Source: a virus. From it: a stretch of DNA of 22,234 nucleotides. The translations under genes and the position numbers were made by a program. Below, piece by piece: positions 5,703 to 22,218 of the stretch (the first letter of the stretch is position 1; each line of letters begins with the position of its first letter). The notes under the pieces are model-generated. The model saw nothing but the letters and a program-made list of their open reading frames with translations. It did not search any database and was not told the DNA's origin. Location: positions 1 to 22,234 of IMG/VR virus record IMGVR_UViG_3300019487_000222. One strand, written 5' to 3'.

Positions 5703-6674
5703 ATGGCTGTTCCAACCGGCACGACGCAGACCTTCCAACAGGTCGGCATCCGCGAGGATCTGGAGGACATCATCTACGACATCAGTCCGATGGATACCCC
5801 GTTTCTCTCCAAGGCTGACCGCATGAAGGCGACTCAGTCTAACCACGAATGGCAGACCGACGCGCTTTCGGCCGCGGCCAACAACCGCGTGATTGAAGGC
5901 GACGACGCGGCGATCGACACCATCGTCGCGACCGTCCGCCTCAACAACTACTGCCAGATTTCGGACAAGGCGATCTCGATCTCGGGCACCGCCAACACCG
6001 TCAACACGGCAGGCCGCAAGCGTGAGCTGTCCTACCAGATCACGAAGCGCGGCAAAGAACTGAAGCGCGACATGGAGTTCGCCCTGACGCAGAATCAGGC
6101 GAGCTCCGTCGGCGGCGCCGGCACCGCCCGTTCGCTGGCATCGCTCGAAAGCTGGATTTCGACCAACCGGACGTCGGTCGGGACCGGCACCTCGCAGACG
6201 ACGCCCGGGTTCTCCGGCGGCGTGGTGGCGGCTCCGACCGATTCCACCGTCACCGGGTCGATGTCGGAAACGACGCTCAAGGCAATGATCCGGGAAGCCT
6301 TCGTGCAGGGCGGCGATCCGTCGCTGATCCTGGTGGGTCCCGGATCAAAGCAGAAGATGAGCACCTTCACCGGCATCGCGACGCAATATCGCGAGAACAG
6401 CGGCGTGAAGCAGGCGACGATCCTCGGGGCGGCGGCGGTGTACGTCTCCGACTTCGGCGAACATCGCATCATGCCGGATCGCTTCTCGCGCGATCGCACG
6501 GTCCTCGGCCTCGACATGGAATACTGGGGGGTCGCCTACCTACGGCCGTTCCAGCAGTTCGAGCTGGCGAAGACCGGCGACTCCGAAAAGCGGCAGATGC
6601 TGGTGGAATACACCCTGGTCGCGAAGAACCAGGCCAGCAGCTTCAAGATCGCCGACGTCAACTCGGCGCTGTAA
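5703..6674 (+). CDS. Major capsid protein, SU10 major head protein type
   Basis: This 323-residue protein starts at ATG 5703 after a good ribosome site (AGAGGAG, about 7 bases upstream). The N-terminus, FQQVGIREDLEDIIYDISPM with DTPFLSKADR after it, then WQTDALSAAANNRVIEGDDA, YCQISDKAISISGTANTV and a C-terminal MEYWGVAYLRPFQQFELAKT, are features of the SU10/DUF5309 family of major head proteins with an HK97-like fold. The length fits. About 400 copies would build an icosahedral head (family knowledge). It is followed by a terminator-like hairpin, which fits a highly expressed gene whose transcript is partly ended or processed here. The identification is firm at family level. Confidence 0.9.
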   Translation: MAVPTGTTQTFQQVGIREDLEDIIYDISPMDTPFLSKADRMKATQSNHEWQTDALSAAANNRVIEGDDAAIDTIVATVRLNNYCQISDKAISISGTANTVNTAGRKRELSYQITKRGKELKRDMEFALTQNQASSVGGAGTARSLASLESWISTNRTSVGTGTSQTTPGFSGGVVAAPTDSTVTGSMSETTLKAMIREAFVQGGDPSLILVGPGSKQKMSTFTGIATQYRENSGVKQATILGAAAVYVSDFGEHRIMPDRFSRDRTVLGLDMEYWGVAYLRPFQQFELAKTGDSEKRQMLVEYTLVAKNQASSFKIADVNSAL

Positions 6675-6685
6675 TTCCTCTCTGG

Positions 6686-6709
6686 CGGGCGGCTGGCAAC
6701 GGCCGCCCG
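6686..6709 (+). terminator. GC-rich hairpin after the capsid gene, probable intrinsic terminator
   Basis: An 8-bp stem (CGGGCGGC at 6686-6693 with GCCGCCCG at 6702-6709) closes over a short loop and is followed by GTCTTTC. It lies 11 bases past the capsid stop and 7 bases before the next ATG. The T-tract is weak, so termination is probably partial. It could also stabilise the 3' end of the capsid mRNA. Confidence 0.5.
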
Positions 6710-6716
6710 GTCTTTC

Positions 6717-7055
6717 ATGGAAATACTCGAACACGATCCGGTCACGGGGATCACGCTCTATCACGATTACGATGCCGTGACCGACACGACGACGCTGGTC
6801 ACCCGCCAGGATTGCGAGCCGATCCTGGAGAACAACAAGATCCTGCAGAACCTCCAGGATCGCGGCTATACGGCCGGCAGGGAATGGCGCCGCGTCGCCG
6901 AAATTCCGCTTGCGCTGCTCGAAAAGTGGCGCGTCGAGGAAGGCATCGACATATTCAACGAAAATCACTGGCCCGCGATCGTGCGGAAGCTCAATGACAC
7001 CGATTATCGCTTCCTGCGCACGGCGCCGGGGCACTTGAGCGGCAAGCTTGGATAA
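6717..7055 (+). CDS. Small conserved phage protein downstream of the capsid gene
   Basis: This is a 112-residue protein. It contains HDPVTGITLYHDYDAVTDTT and then QDCEPILENNKILQNLQDRG. This resembles a family of small proteins found beside podoviral and SU10-like capsid genes, with a DPxTGI...YD...D...I...QD.EPIL..NK.LQN pattern. Its biochemical role is unknown to me. Candidates are a minor head protein or a neck protein. The ATG lies 7 bases after the terminator-like stem with no clear ribosome site, so translation may be low or depend on the state of the hairpin. The last 8 bases overlap the TTG start of the next gene. Confidence 0.65.
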   Translation: MEILEHDPVTGITLYHDYDAVTDTTTLVTRQDCEPILENNKILQNLQDRGYTAGREWRRVAEIPLALLEKWRVEEGIDIFNENHWPAIVRKLNDTDYRFLRTAPGHLSGKLG

Positions 7056-8436
7056 GCGTCTCGCGGCGGCGCAGGCCTGGCTCAACCGCGAAGAGCCGGA
7101 TGAAGCCCTGGCGCTCTGCCATCAGGTGATGAACGATTGTCCAGATGACCTCGGGGCGCTGCACATCGCCGGCCACGCCTACATCAAGGCCGAGCGGTGG
7201 GGCATGGCGTACCAGATGTATTGGCGGGCGACGCAACTGCATCCCGCGAGTTCCGAGTCCTGGAACAACATGGGACGCTGCCTGCAGGAACTGGGGCGCG
7301 TCGACGAGGCCGAGGCCGTCTTCCGGCGCTGCATCGATATGTCGCCAGATGACTACGCCGCCTGCAACAACATGGTGCAGACGTGCACCGTAGCGGGGCG
7401 GCATGGCGAGGCGGTCTATTGGTACAAAGAGGCGCTGAAGCGGGCGAAGGACGAAAACGACCGCCAGGAAGCGCGGATGAACGTCGGCCTGTCCTTGCTG
7501 GCCACGCGGCAATGGGAGGAAGGCTGGACGTGCTACGACGCCGGGCTGCAGCGTAATAAATGCCGGCCGGATATCTCGTTCAAGGGCGAGCCCCGCTGGA
7601 ACGGCGAGCCGCACCAGGGCCTCGTGGTCTATGCAGAGCAGGGATTAGGCGAGGAGATCCTGTTCGGTTCGATGATCCCTGATCTTCTCGCCGACAAGCA
7701 GCGCAACGCGCAGGTGGTGATCGAATGCGACCCGAAGATGTCAGGTTTATTCAGTCGCGCTCTGAAGCTGCCCGTGTATGGGACGCGGTTCTCGAAGGAG
7801 CGTTCCTGGACGCAGCGCCACCGAATCACATCGCACGTAGCGATGGGCAGCCTGGGCCGGTTCTACCGGACGGAGCCGAAGATGTTTCCTGCGCGAGCCT
7901 GTCTGCGTGCCGAGCCGCAACGTTCCCTGATGTATCGGACGCTCCTGGAGCAGCTGGGGCCGGGCCGGACGATCGGGCTGGCGTGGACGGGCGGAAGGAA
8001 GAACACGGGCGCGCCGCAGCGTTCGATTGGCTTGGCTCAATTCGCACCGCTTGCGGGCGATGACGTACACTTGATTTCACTCCAGTACTGCGACCCGGCG
8101 AAGGACATCGCCGACTGCGGGTTCAGGGTGCATCACTTCCCGTTCGCGACGGAGACGCAGGACTATGACGACACTGCCGCGCTCGTCAGCAACCTGGATG
8201 CTGTGGTGTGCGTCACGACCGCTGTGGCTCACCTGTGCGGCGCTCTTGGCGTTCGCTGCCATGTTCTCGTCCCCGAGCATCCGCAATGGCATTGGAACGC
8301 GGACGGACCGAATGCATGGTGGAGCAGCGTCGAGCACTATCGACAGGGAAAGGATGAGCCCTGGTCCGCCGTCATCGCGCGAGTAGAGGAGGTATTGCGT
8401 GGCGATCGAGCCCGTAGTCTGGAAGCTGCTGAGTGA
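7048..8436 (+). CDS. TPR-repeat glycosyltransferase (GT-B, heptosyltransferase/GT9-like C-domain)
   Basis: This is a 462-residue protein. The N-terminal 150 residues hold about four TPR helical pairs (for example SSESWNNMGRCLQELGRVDE followed by AEAVFRRCIDMSPDD). The C-terminal half carries the signatures of TPR-linked GT-B transferases: VVYAEQGLGEEILFGSMIPD near residue 191, IGLAWTGGRK with PQRSIGL near 308, and NLDAVVCVTTAVAHLCGALG near 381. It probably transfers a sugar from a nucleotide-sugar to a protein or glycan acceptor in the cytoplasm, with the TPRs recruiting the acceptor. The start is TTG 7048, overlapping the upstream stop by 8 bases; the next in-frame ATG (7129) would cut into the first TPR. 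It is the first gene of the modification cassette. Substrate and acceptor are unknown. Confidence 0.8.
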   Translation: MDKRLAAAQAWLNREEPDEALALCHQVMNDCPDDLGALHIAGHAYIKAERWGMAYQMYWRATQLHPASSESWNNMGRCLQELGRVDEAEAVFRRCIDMSPDDYAACNNMVQTCTVAGRHGEAVYWYKEALKRAKDENDRQEARMNVGLSLLATRQWEEGWTCYDAGLQRNKCRPDISFKGEPRWNGEPHQGLVVYAEQGLGEEILFGSMIPDLLADKQRNAQVVIECDPKMSGLFSRALKLPVYGTRFSKERSWTQRHRITSHVAMGSLGRFYRTEPKMFPARACLRAEPQRSLMYRTLLEQLGPGRTIGLAWTGGRKNTGAPQRSIGLAQFAPLAGDDVHLISLQYCDPAKDIADCGFRVHHFPFATETQDYDDTAALVSNLDAVVCVTTAVAHLCGALGVRCHVLVPEHPQWHWNADGPNAWWSSVEHYRQGKDEPWSAVIARVEEVLRGDRARSLEAAE

Positions 8437-9076
8437 GCTGAGGCCGCCGCAGCTGCTGTGCCTCGGCTATCCGGACCTGCTGCTGCCGCACGGCGAGCCC
8501 TATCCGATCGCACAGGACGCGGCGGCGATCGCCGGATGGCACGGCTGGAACGGGATGGTCTACGAGACGACCGCCGCGCTGGCGACCATCGGTTGCGAGC
8601 CGGCATTCATCGACATCCATCCGTCGCGCGGAGTTGAGCGGGTCGTGGATCTGAACCAGCCGTTGCCGGGGGATTTGGCGGGACGTTTCGATGCCGTGCT
8701 TGATCCCGGGACGCTGGAACACTGTTTCAACATCGGACAGGCGTTTCGGACTTGCATTGCGGCGCTGAAAGAGACAGGCACGGTGATCCACACCAACCCC
8801 TTGCAGCAGCTCAATCACGGCTTCTGGAACATCTCGCCGACGGCCTATGCCGACCTGTACGAACACTGCGGTTTCACGATCGAATTGTCGATCCTCGCCG
8901 GGCCGCTGGCGGATCGGCAGATATCCCCGAGCAAACCGCATGCCCGGTTTGGCGTCCACGGCGAGGCGGTCAATCTCTGCGTAGCCAAGAGGGCCAAAGA
9001 CCACGGTCCGGTGGGCTGGCCGACCCAGCATAAGTATCGCGCGAACCCGAACCTTAGGGCTGCGAATGTCTATTGA
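8399..9076 (+). CDS. Class I SAM-dependent methyltransferase-like protein
   Basis: This is a 225-residue protein. The start is GTG 8399, fixed by AGGAGG at 8387-8392 with a 6-base spacer, inside the end of the upstream gene (38-base overlap). LLCLGYPDLLLP occupies the place of SAM motif I, replacing the usual DxGxGxG. VLDPGTLEHCFNIGQAF near residue 100 matches motif IV of the methyltransferase-11/23 group, followed by VIHTNPLQQLNHGFWNISPT. It probably methylates a sugar or glycan made by its neighbours. The degenerate glycine motif leaves room for a diverged or altered activity. It overlaps the FkbM gene by 11 bases. Confidence 0.7.
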   Translation: MAIEPVVWKLLSELRPPQLLCLGYPDLLLPHGEPYPIAQDAAAIAGWHGWNGMVYETTAALATIGCEPAFIDIHPSRGVERVVDLNQPLPGDLAGRFDAVLDPGTLEHCFNIGQAFRTCIAALKETGTVIHTNPLQQLNHGFWNISPTAYADLYEHCGFTIELSILAGPLADRQISPSKPHARFGVHGEAVNLCVAKRAKDHGPVGWPTQHKYRANPNLRAANVY

Positions 9077-9671
9077 GAAGCGCGGCGAATGGTGGTGGCC
9101 GTCGCGGGACACGGAATATCTGAAGGTCGCGGCCTGCCTGCAATCGCTGCACCTGGCGGTGAAGCGGGTCCAGGCACGCAACGTCGCGGTACAGGCCGGA
9201 GGGTGCGTCGGCGTATGGCCCCGCCAGCTCTCCGCATGGTTCCAGGCGGTCTACACCTTCGAACCCGACACTGAGAACTTCGAGTGCTTGGTGAAAAACC
9301 TCTCCGGCCTGACCAACGTGGCGAAGATGCAGGCGTGTCTCGGCGCGGGGCAGGCTCCGGTCGGCATGGCGCGGTCCGATGCCAATGTCGGCGCCGGCTA
9401 CATCTGGGGTGACGGCGTGACTCCAGTCATCAAGATCGATGACCTTCATCTCGCCGCCTGCAACTTGATCTGCCTCGACGTCGAGGGTTACGAACTGCCG
9501 GCGATGATGGGGGCAAAGAACACACTGGCGATGTTCCGGCCGGTGGTGTTGTGCGAGGACAAGGGCCTGCATAGGCGATACGGTTTCGGCAATCTGACGG
9601 AGTGGTTGGCGGAGCAGGGATACAAGGAGGTCGGGCGCGAGGCCCGCGACGTGGTGTTCGCGTGGAGCTAG
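9066..9671 (+). CDS. FkbM-family methyltransferase
   Basis: This 201-residue protein has the FkbM layout: AGGCVGVWPRQL at residues 44-55 (motif I), YTFEPDTENFECLVKNL at 63-79, VIKIDDL at 121-127, and ICLDVEGYELPAMMGAKNT at 135-153, with RPVVLCEDKG after that. FkbM enzymes usually O-methylate sugars or small molecules using SAM. Motif I normally reads DxGANxG; here the first position is Gln (QAGG), which should be checked for effect on SAM binding. Start ATG 9066 overlaps the upstream stop and the stop overlaps the next GTG, so the cassette is translationally coupled. A glycan target is inferred from the surrounding glycosyltransferases. Confidence 0.82.
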   Translation: MSIEKRGEWWWPSRDTEYLKVAACLQSLHLAVKRVQARNVAVQAGGCVGVWPRQLSAWFQAVYTFEPDTENFECLVKNLSGLTNVAKMQACLGAGQAPVGMARSDANVGAGYIWGDGVTPVIKIDDLHLAACNLICLDVEGYELPAMMGAKNTLAMFRPVVLCEDKGLHRRYGFGNLTEWLAEQGYKEVGREARDVVFAWS

Positions 9672-10447
9672 CCTTCGTCTTCGTGGACCTCGGCAAGCCG
9701 TTCTATCGCGGCGCCGTGCGGCTGATGGTCGACAGCGCGCGGCTGGCGATGCCGGATGCCAGGATCGTGCAGCTCTCCGACAAGAGCACGCGGGCATACC
9801 CGGGTGTCGATGGGATCGCGACCGCCGACATAGACTGCACGACGGAAACCATCTGCAAACTCAAGGGCCAGATGTTTGCCGACCGCGCCCTGACGGCGGA
9901 CGACAATACGGTTCTCTGCGATATCGATCTGATCTGGAATCGCTCGCCAGAGGAGATATTCGAGCGTCACTTCGACGTGGCGGTCATGTGGCGGCGCGAG
10001 ACGCTGCTGCAGCCGTACAATTCCGGGGTCATCTTCACGAAACCGACGCCCGCAGCGCGGCTGTTCTGGTCCGCCTATGCGCGTTGCATGCTCGAACTGC
10101 CGCCTTCGCTGGCGATGTGGTTCGGGGACCAGGTGGCGCTGGCGTCGCTCATCGGGCCTTCGGCGCCGGGCAACGTGCTGACGCGCAGCGGTGCCAAGGT
10201 GCTGATCCTCGACATGGACGAGATCGCGCGGGCGCCGAAGACGGAGCCGAGGGAAACGACGGACAGCTACTGCGCCCACTTCAAGGGCCTCAAACGACGA
10301 GCATGGATGGCGCCATATGCTGAATATCTTCATCGGCTACGACCCCCGGCAGGCGATAGCGTACAACGTCCTGCAGTTCTCGATTCTGCGGCGCACGTCG
10401 CGGCCGGTGGCGATCTGCCCGCTGGTGCTGGGAACGCTGCCGATTGA
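9662..10447 (+). CDS. GT-A fold glycosyltransferase-like protein with an overrun C-terminus
   Basis: This 261-residue protein starts at GTG 9662, just inside the FkbM gene. Residues 65-90 give the GT-A pattern CKLKGQMF...NTVLCDIDLIW with a DxD metal motif at D87/D89. Then come PYNSGVIFTKPTPAARLFW and the late YCAHFKGLKRRAWM, where the His is typical of the last conserved motif of these transferases. The recognisable domain ends near residue 217. The remaining 43 residues (10314-10447) are read in a different frame over the next gene and look like non-selected sequence (RPPAGDSVQRPAVLDSAAHV). A lost stop or a 3' frameshift is likely. Donor and acceptor are unknown. Confidence 0.7.
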   Translation: MELAFVFVDLGKPFYRGAVRLMVDSARLAMPDARIVQLSDKSTRAYPGVDGIATADIDCTTETICKLKGQMFADRALTADDNTVLCDIDLIWNRSPEEIFERHFDVAVMWRRETLLQPYNSGVIFTKPTPAARLFWSAYARCMLELPPSLAMWFGDQVALASLIGPSAPGNVLTRSGAKVLILDMDEIARAPKTEPRETTDSYCAHFKGLKRRAWMAPYAEYLHRLRPPAGDSVQRPAVLDSAAHVAAGGDLPAGAGNAAD

Positions 10448-10982
10448 CCGCCAAGGACTGACGCCGTTCACCTATTCGCGGTTTCTGGTGTCTTGGCTGT
10501 GCGACTACCAAGGGTGGGCGCTGTTCCTCGATCTCGACATTCTCTGCGTGGCGGACATCGCGGAGATATTCGAGCACGGCTTCGGCGACGAGCAGAGACA
10601 CGCCGTCTGGACCGTCGACACAGACCCCGCATATGAGCGCGCGGCGGTGATGCTGTTCGCCTGCGGTCATCCCGACAACAAGGTGCTGACCCCGGACGCG
10701 GTGAACGAGCGTGGCGACCTGCACCTGATCGGCTGGACGAAGAACCGGGGACGGCTGAGCCCCCGCTGGAACCATCTCGTCGGCTACGACGCGCCATGCA
10801 GCGACCCGGCGCTGATCCACTACACCATGGGCGTGCCGGCGCACAAAGAGACGCAGGATTGCGAACACGCAGACCTCTGGCGGCAGGAGCAGCGCGCGAT
10901 GAATTCGACGCAGGACTGGCAGACGCTCATGGGCAAGAGCGCCCATGTCGTTGACGGCAAGCCTCGCTACAAGGTGGCCTGA
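10317..10982 (+). CDS. GT8-like glycosyltransferase
   Basis: This is a 221-residue protein. The start MLNIFIGYDPRQAIAYNVLQ, the FTYSRFLVSWLCDYQGWALF segment and LDLDILCVADI (DxD at D72/D74) are typical of GT-A transferases of the GT8 type. LIHYTMGVP near residue 167 supplies the expected late metal- or substrate-binding His. The size is close to a minimal GT-A domain. It is the last gene of the modification cassette and shares a base with the adaptor gene start (TGATG). It probably adds a hexose or related sugar to an acceptor made by the upstream enzymes. The first 131 bases overlap the previous gene in another frame. Confidence 0.75.
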   Translation: MLNIFIGYDPRQAIAYNVLQFSILRRTSRPVAICPLVLGTLPIDRQGLTPFTYSRFLVSWLCDYQGWALFLDLDILCVADIAEIFEHGFGDEQRHAVWTVDTDPAYERAAVMLFACGHPDNKVLTPDAVNERGDLHLIGWTKNRGRLSPRWNHLVGYDAPCSDPALIHYTMGVPAHKETQDCEHADLWRQEQRAMNSTQDWQTLMGKSAHVVDGKPRYKVA

Positions 10983-11653
10983 TGAGCCTCGCAACCTACG
11001 TCGACCTGCTCACTGGCATCGCCGCCTGGTATGGCACCCCGGGCGATTTGGTCATCACGGACAACGACGACGATTTCGTGACGCTGGCCGAATCCCGCAT
11101 CTACAATGGATACGGCGAGCCTGGCGACCCGTTCTATTCGCCGGCCGTGCGCACGCGGCTCATGGAAGCGAGCACGGACTTGACGATCTCCGCGCAGACG
11201 GCGGCGATGCCGAGCGATTTCCTGGCGCCGCGGCGGCTGTATCTGAACAGCAACCCGATCGTCGTGATGGATTTCCTGGCCTCGACCGACTTCTGGTCCC
11301 GGTTCATGGCGAGCGAGAGCGGCCAGCCGGTGGCGTACACGATCGAAGGCTCCGACTTCGTGTTCGGCCCGTCTCCGGCCACGACCTACACCGGCAAACT
11401 GCTCTATTGGAAGAAATTCGCGGCGCTGTCCACCGCGGTCAATGGCCTCTTCACCGCGGCCCCGGATCTCTGGCTCTGGGGGTCGTGTTTACTGGCGGCG
11501 GTGTTCAAGGACGATCCCGAAGCCATGTCGCGGTTCCATGCGCTGTACATGGGCACCGCCAAGGGCCTGAACGCAAGCGACCGGGCGGCCAAGTACGGCG
11601 GCGCCCCGCTGATGATGCGCAGCGACACCGGCAACCCGCCGGCTATTGCCTAG
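10982..11653 (+). CDS. Head-tail adaptor protein, SU10/P22 gp4-like
   Basis: This 223-residue protein has the order of motifs seen in phage adaptor proteins. An N-terminal helix MSLATYVDLLTGIAAWYG leads to FVTLAESRIYNGYGEPGDPF and MPSDFLAPRRLYLN. A beta region follows, with GQPVAYTIEGSDFVFGPSPA and LLYWKKF, then a C-terminal helical part APDLWLWGSCLLAAVFKDDP. These proteins form a ring beneath the portal and connect the head to the tail. An SU10-type adaptor agrees with the SU10-type capsid protein at 5703. It is normally close to portal and capsid genes; here five sugar-modifying genes intervene. Confidence 0.78.
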   Translation: MSLATYVDLLTGIAAWYGTPGDLVITDNDDDFVTLAESRIYNGYGEPGDPFYSPAVRTRLMEASTDLTISAQTAAMPSDFLAPRRLYLNSNPIVVMDFLASTDFWSRFMASESGQPVAYTIEGSDFVFGPSPATTYTGKLLYWKKFAALSTAVNGLFTAAPDLWLWGSCLLAAVFKDDPEAMSRFHALYMGTAKGLNASDRAAKYGGAPLMMRSDTGNPPAIA

Positions 11654-13354: not shown

Positions 13355-13909
13355 TTAGCGGTCGTCGATGACCTGCCAAGTGGTGCCGCCAAACAGCCGC
13401 GAGACGAATACCCAGCCGTTGCTGCGAGCTTGACGCCACGGGGCGATGTAGTCAGTCAGATTGTCCATGACGAAATCGCCCTGATCGGTGACCAGGACGA
13501 GGACCATATGGCCATCGGGATCGGTCGGGTGCGCGATGAGCGCCGGCAGCATGGCCGCGGCCGGGATGCCAGCCTGGATCAGCCGGTCGCGCTTCGTCAG
13601 GACGTAGTCCTCGCAGTCGCCGCCGTCCGGCCCGAGCAGCGTCCAGACATCCTCGTCGTCGCGGGGGCCGTCGTCGCGGTAGGGCGCCCGGTTGACCTCG
13701 ATGTTGATGCGCTTCGTCAGCGCCTTGAATTCGTCGGTGAGCGGCACGATCAGCGGCCGGGTGTTGTAGTGCAACGGATGGTCGGCCAGGAAGGCATTCC
13801 ATTCTGCAAATTCCTGGGCTGTGGCGCTAGCCGGCATGTAGTTCCGCTCGCCGCCGGCCAGGGCCGGCGAGGAGGCCAACAGCAGGGCCGCTAATGCAAT
13901 CTGGCGCAT
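13355..13909 (-). CDS. Secreted transglutaminase-like cysteine protease (BTLCP/LapG-type, peptidase C93)
   Basis: This is a 184-residue protein on the opposite strand to its neighbours. Residues 1-18 form a signal peptide (MRQIALAALLLASSPALA, with Ala-Leu-Ala before the cut). The catalytic triad of bacterial transglutaminase-like cysteine proteases is present: Cys99 in GGDCEDYVLTKRDRLIQAG, His134 in DGHMVLVLV and Asp149 in FVMDNL. The relative LapG cleaves cell-surface adhesins in the periplasm; this target is not established here. It follows the 32-residue lipoprotein gene by 12 bases and probably shares its promoter. An exported enzyme that could act on the host envelope, transcribed against the virion genes, looks like a moron. 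It may alter host adhesion or exclude other phages (inference). Confidence 0.85.
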   Translation of the reverse strand: MRQIALAALLLASSPALAGGERNYMPASATAQEFAEWNAFLADHPLHYNTRPLIVPLTDEFKALTKRINIEVNRAPYRDDGPRDDEDVWTLLGPDGGDCEDYVLTKRDRLIQAGIPAAAMLPALIAHPTDPDGHMVLVLVTDQGDFVMDNLTDYIAPWRQARSNGWVFVSRLFGGTTWQVIDDR

Positions 13910-20700: not shown

Positions 20701-21030
20701 ATGTTAACGCGTGTCGGGCTACCAAAAATCGTCACTTTTGTGACCTGTATCACTGCATTCCCAGCAGTCACCTTTCCCGCCTATGGGCAAGCCGCCTGCG
20801 GACCGCGGGAGGATATCCTTGCCGCTCTCGGCTCGGTCGCCCGCGAGCAGCCGGAGGGCGTCGGGCTTTCCCAGCGTGGGTACATCCTTCAGCTGATGAC
20901 ATCGGACAACCGGCGGACGTTCTCGCTGGTGGCGATCTACGCCGACGGCCGCGCCTGCGTCGTGGATGCCGGGCAGGGCTGGGAATGGTTGAACAAGCTG
21001 GACTATCCTACGTTCGGAGACGGCACATGA
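20701..21030 (+). CDS. Small secreted hypothetical protein
   Basis: This is a 109-residue protein. AGGAGG at 20686-20691, 9 bases before the ATG, decides this start over upstream in-frame options. Residues 1-32 form a signal peptide (hydrophobic KIVTFVTCITAFPAVTFPAY, then GQA before ACGPRED). The mature part has two cysteines (in ACGPRED and in ACVVDAGQGWEW) that may pair in the periplasm. The segment RTFSLVAIYADGRACVVDAG is of a kind seen in small alphaproteobacterial exported proteins of unknown function. It is the first gene of the lysis-type cluster; whether it takes part in lysis is not known. Confidence 0.65.
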   Translation: MLTRVGLPKIVTFVTCITAFPAVTFPAYGQAACGPREDILAALGSVAREQPEGVGLSQRGYILQLMTSDNRRTFSLVAIYADGRACVVDAGQGWEWLNKLDYPTFGDGT

Positions 21031-21338
21031 GCGCCCTCTTCCGTTTCTCCGATCACACGATCACCAACGATGCTGGCAGGGCCGTTCTGGCAGAGTCCGA
21101 GGCGACGATCCTCGGCCTTCTGGCGAAGTATCATAACCGCGTCGTGAGCTTCGAGAGGATCGCCAAATCCCTCTGGCCGATCTCCGCCGACGAGGTGAAA
21201 AACGAACACAACCAGATCGCCATCTATGTCCACCACCTCCGGGCGAAGCTGGTTCCGTTCAACTTGGCGGTCAAGAACATCCACGGCGTCGGCTACTACC
21301 TGGAAGGCGAGCTGGACGTCGATTGGACGGCGATATGA
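21027..21338 (+). CDS. Stand-alone OmpR/PhoB-type winged-helix DNA-binding protein
   Basis: This 103-residue protein is coupled to the previous gene by ATGA. It consists of a single Trans_reg_C-like domain. ESEATILGLLAKYHNRVVSF with ERIAKSLWP corresponds to the first helices. NQIAIYVHHLRAKLVPFNLA holds the recognition helix, and IHGVGYYLEG is the characteristic beta-hairpin wing. No receiver domain and no transmembrane part is present. It probably binds DNA, possibly controlling late or lysis genes, but could have a non-DNA role. Its place between a secreted protein and a holin-like gene is unusual. Confidence 0.75.
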   Translation: MSALFRFSDHTITNDAGRAVLAESEATILGLLAKYHNRVVSFERIAKSLWPISADEVKNEHNQIAIYVHHLRAKLVPFNLAVKNIHGVGYYLEGELDVDWTAI

Positions 21339-21766
21339 TGCCGCATGGAGAGGACATGGCAGACGGCCACAAGACGACAACGCAGCGGGTCGGCGACATC
21401 GCCGCAAACCCGTACCTGACGGTCATCGCGCGGACGGCGATGGTGTTCGTCACCTTCATCGCCGCGCCGGTCATCTACTGGGTGATCTCGACGATGATCG
21501 ATGTGAACAACACAATGTCGACCATCGTCCTGATCCAGACGACGCAGCAGGAACAGATACAACAGCTCGTCTCCACGCAAAGCACGGTGATCAACACGCA
21601 GGCGAACGAGGGACAGACGCGGGCAGTCACCGACGCGCAACTCAATGCGCAGATCGATGCCGTGAGGGACAACCTGGCCCGTACGGAGCGGCAGCTAGAA
21701 GCCCAGGATGCCCGCATCAACGACCTGCAGCGCCGCATCTACGATAGCCGGAGACCCGCGCAATGA
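21335..21766 (+). CDS. One-TM coiled-coil holin- or spanin-like protein
   Basis: This is a 143-residue protein from ATG 21335 (ATGA overlap with the winged-helix gene). ATG 21356, with GGAG 5 bases upstream, is a credible alternative start, giving two possible products that differ by 7 residues. One membrane span (YLTVIARTAMVFVTFIAAPV then IYWVISTMI) is followed by a long polar coiled coil (about residues 60-140; TDAQLNAQIDAVRDNLARTE then RQLEAQDARINDLQRRI). This resembles single-span phage holins and inner-membrane spanins. It overlaps the endolysin gene start, supporting a lysis role. Which of the two it is cannot be decided from sequence. Confidence 0.65.
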   Translation: MMPHGEDMADGHKTTTQRVGDIAANPYLTVIARTAMVFVTFIAAPVIYWVISTMIDVNNTMSTIVLIQTTQQEQIQQLVSTQSTVINTQANEGQTRAVTDAQLNAQIDAVRDNLARTERQLEAQDARINDLQRRIYDSRRPAQ

Positions 21767-22218
21767 TAGACGTTTTCCCACAAGCATTTGACCACGTCAT
21801 CAAGTGGGAGGGCGGCGAGAAGATCACCGACGATCCGCGCGACCCCGGCGGCCTGACGAAGTGGGGTGTGTCTCTCCGCGCGCATCCGAAGCTCGGCCGC
21901 GACGGCATCCGCAACCTCACGCGCGAGCAGGCGGCCGACATCTACAAGCGCGAATACTGGCTACCATGCGGGTGCCACAAGCTGCGGCCGGCGCTCGCGC
22001 TCGCCGTGTTCGATGCCGCAGTCAATGTCGGCGTGAAGCGGACCAGGTTATGGCTCGATGAGTCGGGCCGCGACCTCGTCAAGTTCACGGTGAAACGGGC
22101 AACGCACTACGCGCTGCTCGACTCGATCGATGACATCTATGCGAAGGGCTGGTTCAATCGCCTCTTCGATACCTATACGAAGTGCCTTCTGCTCGACATG
22201 AAAGGAACATCGACATGA
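21763..22218 (+). CDS. GH108-family endolysin (N-acetylmuramidase)
   Basis: This is a 151-residue protein. FDHVIKWEGGEKITDDPRDP followed by GGLTKWGVS near the N-terminus is the hallmark of glycoside hydrolase 108, with Glu16 in WEGG as the catalytic acid. LTREQAADIYKREYWLPCGC and ALAVFDAAVNVG match later conserved blocks. The C-terminal GWFNRLFDTYTKCLLL corresponds to the usual small end region. The enzyme cuts the peptidoglycan sugar backbone to release progeny phage. No signal peptide is seen, so access to the wall would need the adjacent holin-like protein. It starts by ATGA overlap with that gene and ends by ATGA overlap with the next. Confidence 0.88.
   Translation: MIDVFPQAFDHVIKWEGGEKITDDPRDPGGLTKWGVSLRAHPKLGRDGIRNLTREQAADIYKREYWLPCGCHKLRPALALAVFDAAVNVGVKRTRLWLDESGRDLVKFTVKRATHYALLDSIDDIYAKGWFNRLFDTYTKCLLLDMKGTST

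Follow-up and report, generated by a model that had tools for sequence, protein, structure and literature searches.

We describe here a cassette of five overlapping genes in the head region of a phage, which is likely to function in the glycosylation of a virion protein. It lies in IMG/VR record IMGVR_UViG_3300019487_000222, which is covered end to end by the stretch of DNA we analysed (henceforth the window; 22,234 bases) and is probably a fragment of a larger genome, because the records of its relatives reach ~41-44 kb; additional glycan genes may lie in the rest of that genome. The first gene of the cassette codes for a protein with tetratricopeptide repeats (TPR) coupled to a glycosyltransferase (GT) domain, hereafter TPR-GT; it is followed by genes for two methyltransferases and two glycosyltransferases of the GT-A type. 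We propose that TPR-GT acts in the cytoplasm, in the manner of the flagellin-modifying FlmG of Caulobacter crescentus, on a virion protein that is most likely the capsid protein, and that the companion enzymes extend and methylate the resulting glycan. Modification of a virion protein is the preferred function because of three lines of evidence: the fold of TPR-GT is like that of protein O-glycosyltransferases; the linkage of its gene to that of the capsid holds in two capsid families; and in bacteria, its relatives adjoin pilin genes.

Architecture of TPR-GT and its companion enzymes

TPR-GT (7048-8436, + strand, with a TTG start) is a predicted soluble protein with an N-terminal TPR domain (approximately residues 1-165; Pfam TPR_2, E 4e-13) and a C-terminal GT-B domain. 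Its AlphaFold model has a mean predicted local distance difference test score (pLDDT) of 95.4 and shows helices of the TPR type and, towards the C-terminus, a Rossmann-like part. The top matches of this model among solved structures in a Foldseek search are SPINDLY (E 3.2e-12) and OGT (E 6.8e-10): these GT41 enzymes are protein O-fucosyl- and O-GlcNAc transferases, and they combine TPRs with a GT-B domain as TPR-GT is predicted to do. Judged by its model, TPR-GT is built like a TPR protein glycosyltransferase, with membership in GT41 unproven and, by sequence, rejected: no GT41 match to the window protein is listed. Of 42 members, eight matched Glyco_transf_9 weakly (best E 2.9e-4), the catalytic-domain family listed for them; the window protein itself does not match this family.

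The remaining members of the cassette are all encoded on the + strand. The gene at 8399-9076 codes for a predicted class I S-adenosylmethionine (SAM) methyltransferase: it has a weak match to Methyltransf_12 (E 0.009), its AlphaFold model (pLDDT 84) matches class I SAM methyltransferases with UbiG as the best hit (E 7.7e-7), and its motifs are conserved across 16 sequences. The next product (9066-9671) is an FkbM-type methyltransferase, which scores 42 bits against PF05050, above the cut-off of 22.7 (E 1.4e-10), and also matches phrog_8156 (E 1e-25). The first GT-A glycosyltransferase (9662-10447, GTG start) is of the Nucleotid_trans type (PF03407, E 3.5e-6) and has a DxD motif, seen as DID on direct reading. 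The second (10317-10982; phrog_28018, E 1.3e-17) is GT8-like, with its match to GT8 itself falling under the cut-off (E 0.0018); it too has a DxD motif, whose aspartates, D72 and D74, are invariant in 11 sequences, and a profile match among solved structures to WbbM (E 0.0012). Hydropathy analysis indicated no membrane-spanning segment in any of the five proteins. A serotype-conversion module of the GtrABC type, for which a membrane flippase and membrane glycosyltransferases would be expected, was rejected on this basis.

Conservation of the cassette slot and its tie to the capsid gene

The cassette occupies a slot bounded by the gene for a major capsid protein of the SU10 type (5703-6674, + strand; SU10_MCP, E 2.1e-90; major head protein phrog_1328, E 1.5e-94), which is the proposed acceptor, and by that for the SU10 adaptor at its right edge (10982-11653, + strand; PF24175, E 1.6e-20). 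A small conserved head-region gene (6717-7055, + strand; phrog_3982, E 3.7e-20), found in most relatives, lies between the capsid gene and TPR-GT. Each of our scans retained the 80 best matches, and the proportions given here apply to the relatives so sampled rather than to all phages. When 80 relatives were gathered by their capsid protein, TPR-GT was present in 26 sequences, with the window counted, and in its SU10-clade carriers it comes right after the capsid gene or, where this intervenes, the small gene; in most relatives lacking the cassette, the small gene directly adjoins the adaptor gene. In a scan led by the TPR-GT alignment, the capsid, small gene and adaptor are all visible in 54 of 80 loci, with the others missing one or two of these, often through a contig end.

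The contents of the slot are dominated by glycan-type enzymes. Across 93 relatives with both TPR-GT and the adaptor, 0-7 extra genes lie between them, adding up to 209 open reading frames, of which ~150, as estimated from cluster sizes, belong to clusters recognised as glycosyltransferases, methyltransferases or other sugar-related enzymes. Counted among these are sugar aminotransferases of the DegT/DnrJ/EryC1 family (L120:11358-12422; L136:11731-12753), so that an amino-sugar donor may be synthesised by some of the phages themselves, and radical SAM-SPASM proteins (L156:5574-6647; L179:2808-3863), which point to additional reactions on a sugar or a peptide. A sequence-only reading of the window had considered the set, order and placement of the five genes unusual, and had called for a neighbourhood search for these families beside SU10-type capsid genes. 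In our scans, L115, L117 and L152 each hold all five families in the slot, and another three contigs (L103, L104 and L116) hold four. Hence, the set and its placement recur among relatives, the latter as a rule of the clade, and only the order is peculiar to the window: in these six contigs it runs TPR-GT, GT-A, FkbM, the other methyltransferase where present, and GT-A.

The only annotated match to at least 80% of TPR-GT among 50,697 phage records is in MW202512, an uncultured podovirus-like genome from Manatee Spring. Here, the same slot comprises the capsid gene, two small genes, the TPR protein, an HNH gene, a methyltransferase, a GT-A enzyme and then a gene in the adaptor position. It differs from the window in the inserted HNH endonuclease-like gene (20848-21324), which separates the gene of the TPR protein from that of the methyltransferase, and in having a methyltransferase of another type; the record proposes no function.

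The presence of TPR-GT follows the capsid lineage closely: on a tree of 109 distinct capsids, 71 of them accompanied by TPR-GT, its distribution takes three changes, as against 31.6 with shuffled labels. Pairwise distances between TPR-GTs correlate with those between capsids at 0.88, and with those of the small gene and the adaptor at 0.81 and 0.79, respectively; the capsid distances in turn correlate with the small gene at 0.83 and with the adaptor at 0.78. The partial correlation of TPR-GT and capsid with the small gene and adaptor controlled is 0.56. Genomic distance alone fails to explain this ranking, because TPR-GT lies farther than the small gene from the capsid gene. As the pairs are non-independent and longer proteins yield less noisy distances, these values are a pointer rather than proof.

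A comparable tie was recovered with a second capsid family. In two relatives of the window methyltransferase (L086 and L101), TPR-GT comes right after a capsid gene of the Phage_capsid_3 family (E 1e-54 and 4e-57). A second scan, led by the L101 protein, yielded 77 TPR-GT loci with these two counted, of which eight were cut off and 69 testable: in 68 of the latter a capsid gene, 50 being Phage_capsid_3 and 18 SU10, lies at most 1.5 kb upstream of TPR-GT. In the sole exception (L268), TPR-GT lies upstream of putative terminase, portal and scaffold genes, as judged by size and order, with Phage_capsid_3 farther downstream. Kinship of the two capsid families was considered as a trivial cause of the shared neighbour: their profiles have no detectable similarity (hhalign probability 1%), yet a common ancestral head module is compatible with this. 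On the TPR-GT tree, the 92 SU10-linked, 45 Phage_capsid_3-linked and 21 bacterial sequences form three groups with only two changes, the fewest possible. Either TPR-GT was placed next to capsid genes on two occasions, or it was inherited within a shared head module whose capsids drifted apart until no similarity could be recognised; under both origins the link to the capsid has been kept, and we saw no exchange between the capsid families. In L101 we also observed genes for an NAD-dependent epimerase (E 1.7e-25), a GT-A enzyme and a methyltransferase (6295-8699) just upstream of the Phage_capsid_3 gene, with TPR-GT on the other side of the latter.

The bacterial relatives of TPR-GT form tandem arrays, chiefly in Betaproteobacteria (L185-L252). 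Of the 68 bacterial loci, 32 contain a major type IV pilin gene, which is usually no more than a few hundred bases away from a TPR-GT gene (e.g. L189:12974-13405 and L191:11429-11953), and a flagellin gene in three more. Against this, 25 pilin-pattern matches in ~91 Mb, from 19 of these genomes, give an expectation of ~0.006 per 20-kb locus. The arrays suggest cytoplasmic glycosylation of pilin, and the pilin-adjacent TPR-GTs predict such a route in Betaproteobacteria; we found no description of a TPR-GT beside pilin in the open literature, with most subscription papers lying outside this search. The simplest rule common to the bacterial and phage contexts would be that the enzyme adjoins the gene of the abundant self-assembling protein it modifies, here the capsid gene. 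FlmG of C. crescentus offers a characterized precedent: it binds flagellin through its TPR domain and is both necessary and sufficient for modification of this protein (PMC7591256). Like TPR-GT, it is described as soluble, with an N-terminal TPR and a C-terminal GT-B domain, and its acceptor is an abundant self-assembling protein, as we propose for the phage enzyme (PMC7591256). It differs in acting on flagellin with pseudaminic acid as the sugar, whereas TPR-GT is a phage protein encoded beside a capsid gene and is likened to it by description.

The proposed acceptor and alternative functions

Starting from the gene content and order, the two predicted folds, the conservation of the slot and the tie to the capsid gene, all of which were observed here, we infer the acceptor, the sugar, the order of steps and the benefit to the particle as follows. 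In the cytoplasm, the TPR domain would bind an abundant structural protein soon after its synthesis, with the major capsid protein as the likeliest candidate, and the GT-B domain would move the first sugar from a nucleotide sugar onto this protein. The two GT-A enzymes might then attach further sugars, and the two methyltransferases could cap the glycan with methyl groups. TPR-GT would constitute the stably inherited part of the system and the companion genes a changeable set that alters the glycan between phages; the particle may thereby gain shielding, stability or adhesion.

Several observations weigh against glycosylation of the capsid. Many SU10-family capsids occur without TPR-GT. In sequence, its catalytic domain is nearer to the heptosyltransferase family GT9 than to GT41, and it differs from OGT and SPINDLY both in this weak GT9-likeness and in its poor global superposition, with the Foldseek matches having low TM-scores (template modelling scores) of 0.33-0.43; a different inter-domain angle in the model might explain the latter. 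Genes that are linked and inherited together yield similar distance correlations without any contact between their products. Moreover, the Ser/Thr fraction is not higher in the capsids of phages with TPR-GT (0.183 vs 0.197), and more alignment columns lean the opposite way, so that Ser/Thr enrichment gives no sign of the acceptor. The lack of such a signature favours an acceptor other than the capsid. Candidates are the product of the small gene at 6717-7055, a fibre or decoration protein of the head, and the adhesin-like proteins rich in glycine that are encoded at 345-2454. The presence of the small gene between capsid and TPR-GT in most relatives also speaks for a non-capsid acceptor. We nevertheless regard this reading as rather unlikely, as TPR-GT distances track the capsid more closely than they do the small gene or the adaptor, and TPR-GT is present in the Phage_capsid_3 loci although the profile of the small gene was not found there.

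Instead of acting on the virion, the cassette could remodel the surface glycan of the infected host, be it lipopolysaccharide or capsule, e.g. against superinfection or the loss of progeny to debris. The sequence-only reading had set this beside virion-protein modification. Of the two, the latter is supported by the fold, the capsid tie and the pilin neighbours; the former, for which no positive evidence emerged, we consider improbable. GT8-like and FkbM families are known from surface polysaccharide clusters too, and the WbbM matched by the second GT-A enzyme is an O-antigen enzyme, which are weak pointers towards host glycans; against them stand the five proteins devoid of membrane-spanning segments, a window in which no flippase, carrier or ligase genes were seen, a TPR-GT-B architecture typical of enzymes with protein acceptors and the strict tie of TPR-GT to head genes. 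It is similarly hard to credit that the genes play no part in the virion and are accessory cargo at a point where the head operon tolerates extra genes, or that they modify the bases of the phage DNA. The variable order and number (0 to 7) of companion genes, and the adjoining small gene and adaptor of cassette-free phages, are what cargo would produce; however, TPR-GT is stably inherited, it was found outside the capsid-adaptor slot only once in these scans (L268, where it is still upstream of head genes and the capsid), and the slot genes are mostly of the glycan type. As for DNA modification, no base-hypermodification gene was noticed in the 22 kb at hand.

Returning to glycosylation of a virion protein, phage-encoded enzymes of this kind are established in mycobacteriophages such as Che8 (Freeman 2023, as cited in PMC11652166 and PMC11256854). 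There too, glycosylation of capsid or tail proteins has been shown for, or is attributed to, phage-encoded glycosyltransferases; these are other phages and other genes, with the glycosyltransferase genes of Maravista lying near the 3' end of the genome rather than by the capsid gene, and the portions of these accounts that we consulted mention no TPR-GT. We found no description of a capsid-linked TPR-GT in phages in the open literature, with the same limit on subscription papers. Hence, virion glycosylation by phages is already known, and its capsid-linked TPR-GT form looks new. A broader proposal, which could about as readily prove right as wrong, is that the TPR-GT family consists of dedicated capsid glycosyltransferases that diversified, in uncultured podovirus-like phages, in step with two capsid families lacking detectable sequence similarity, and that glycosylation of the shell with a changeable, methylated glycan is common and old and hardly shown by cultured phages. 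If true, many environmental phages would own a system for decorating their shells with sugars, in which the specificity domain has followed the capsid through evolution, with a bearing on how stable the particles are, how they adhere and how they are recognised. How an O-glycosyltransferase selects its protein would become directly testable with the pairs of TPR domain and capsid that occur naturally in both families, and the enzymes would provide a small set of soluble tools for adding glycans to particles that are already assembled.

Gene layout, expression and neighbouring genes

The five-gene cassette, first noted by reading the window alone, was recovered in full on the + strand. It had been placed between the capsid and adaptor genes: it directly adjoins the adaptor gene, and on the capsid side the small gene intervenes. 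From the small gene through the adaptor, successive genes overlap by 8, 38, 11, 10, 131 and 1 nt, and since every junction overlaps, the run probably forms one coupled translation unit. The guanine plus cytosine (G+C) content is 63-65% both inside the cassette and in its surroundings; this flank-like composition, along with the three changes on the capsid tree, led us to reject a recent gain of TPR-GT.

A terminator-like hairpin with a 10-pair stem (6686-6709, + strand; -26.5 kcal/mol, z -4.06) lies 3' of the capsid gene. Comparable hairpins, as assessed with simple shuffles, follow the capsid gene in 57 of 71 relatives with TPR-GT and in 35 of 38 without it. Because of this hairpin, the cassette is probably expressed by read-through at a level below that of the capsid gene, which would fit enzymes.

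Elsewhere in the window, the genes at 345-1235 and 1435-2454 encode tandem glycine-rich paralogues with similar N-termini (MAFALID..YTA) and no Pfam match, which are possibly adhesin tips. On the opposite strand within the virion operon (13355-13909, - strand) is a gene for a transglutaminase-like cysteine proteinase of the LapG family (BTLCP, PF06035, E 9.7e-25) with an apparent signal peptide; such a phage-borne LapG-like protease could free host biofilm adhesins. Towards the end of the window, a stand-alone Trans_reg_C DNA-binding domain without a receiver (20985-21338, E 4e-11) is encoded close to the lysis genes, and a GH108 endolysin (E 2.4e-26) is encoded at 21763-22218.

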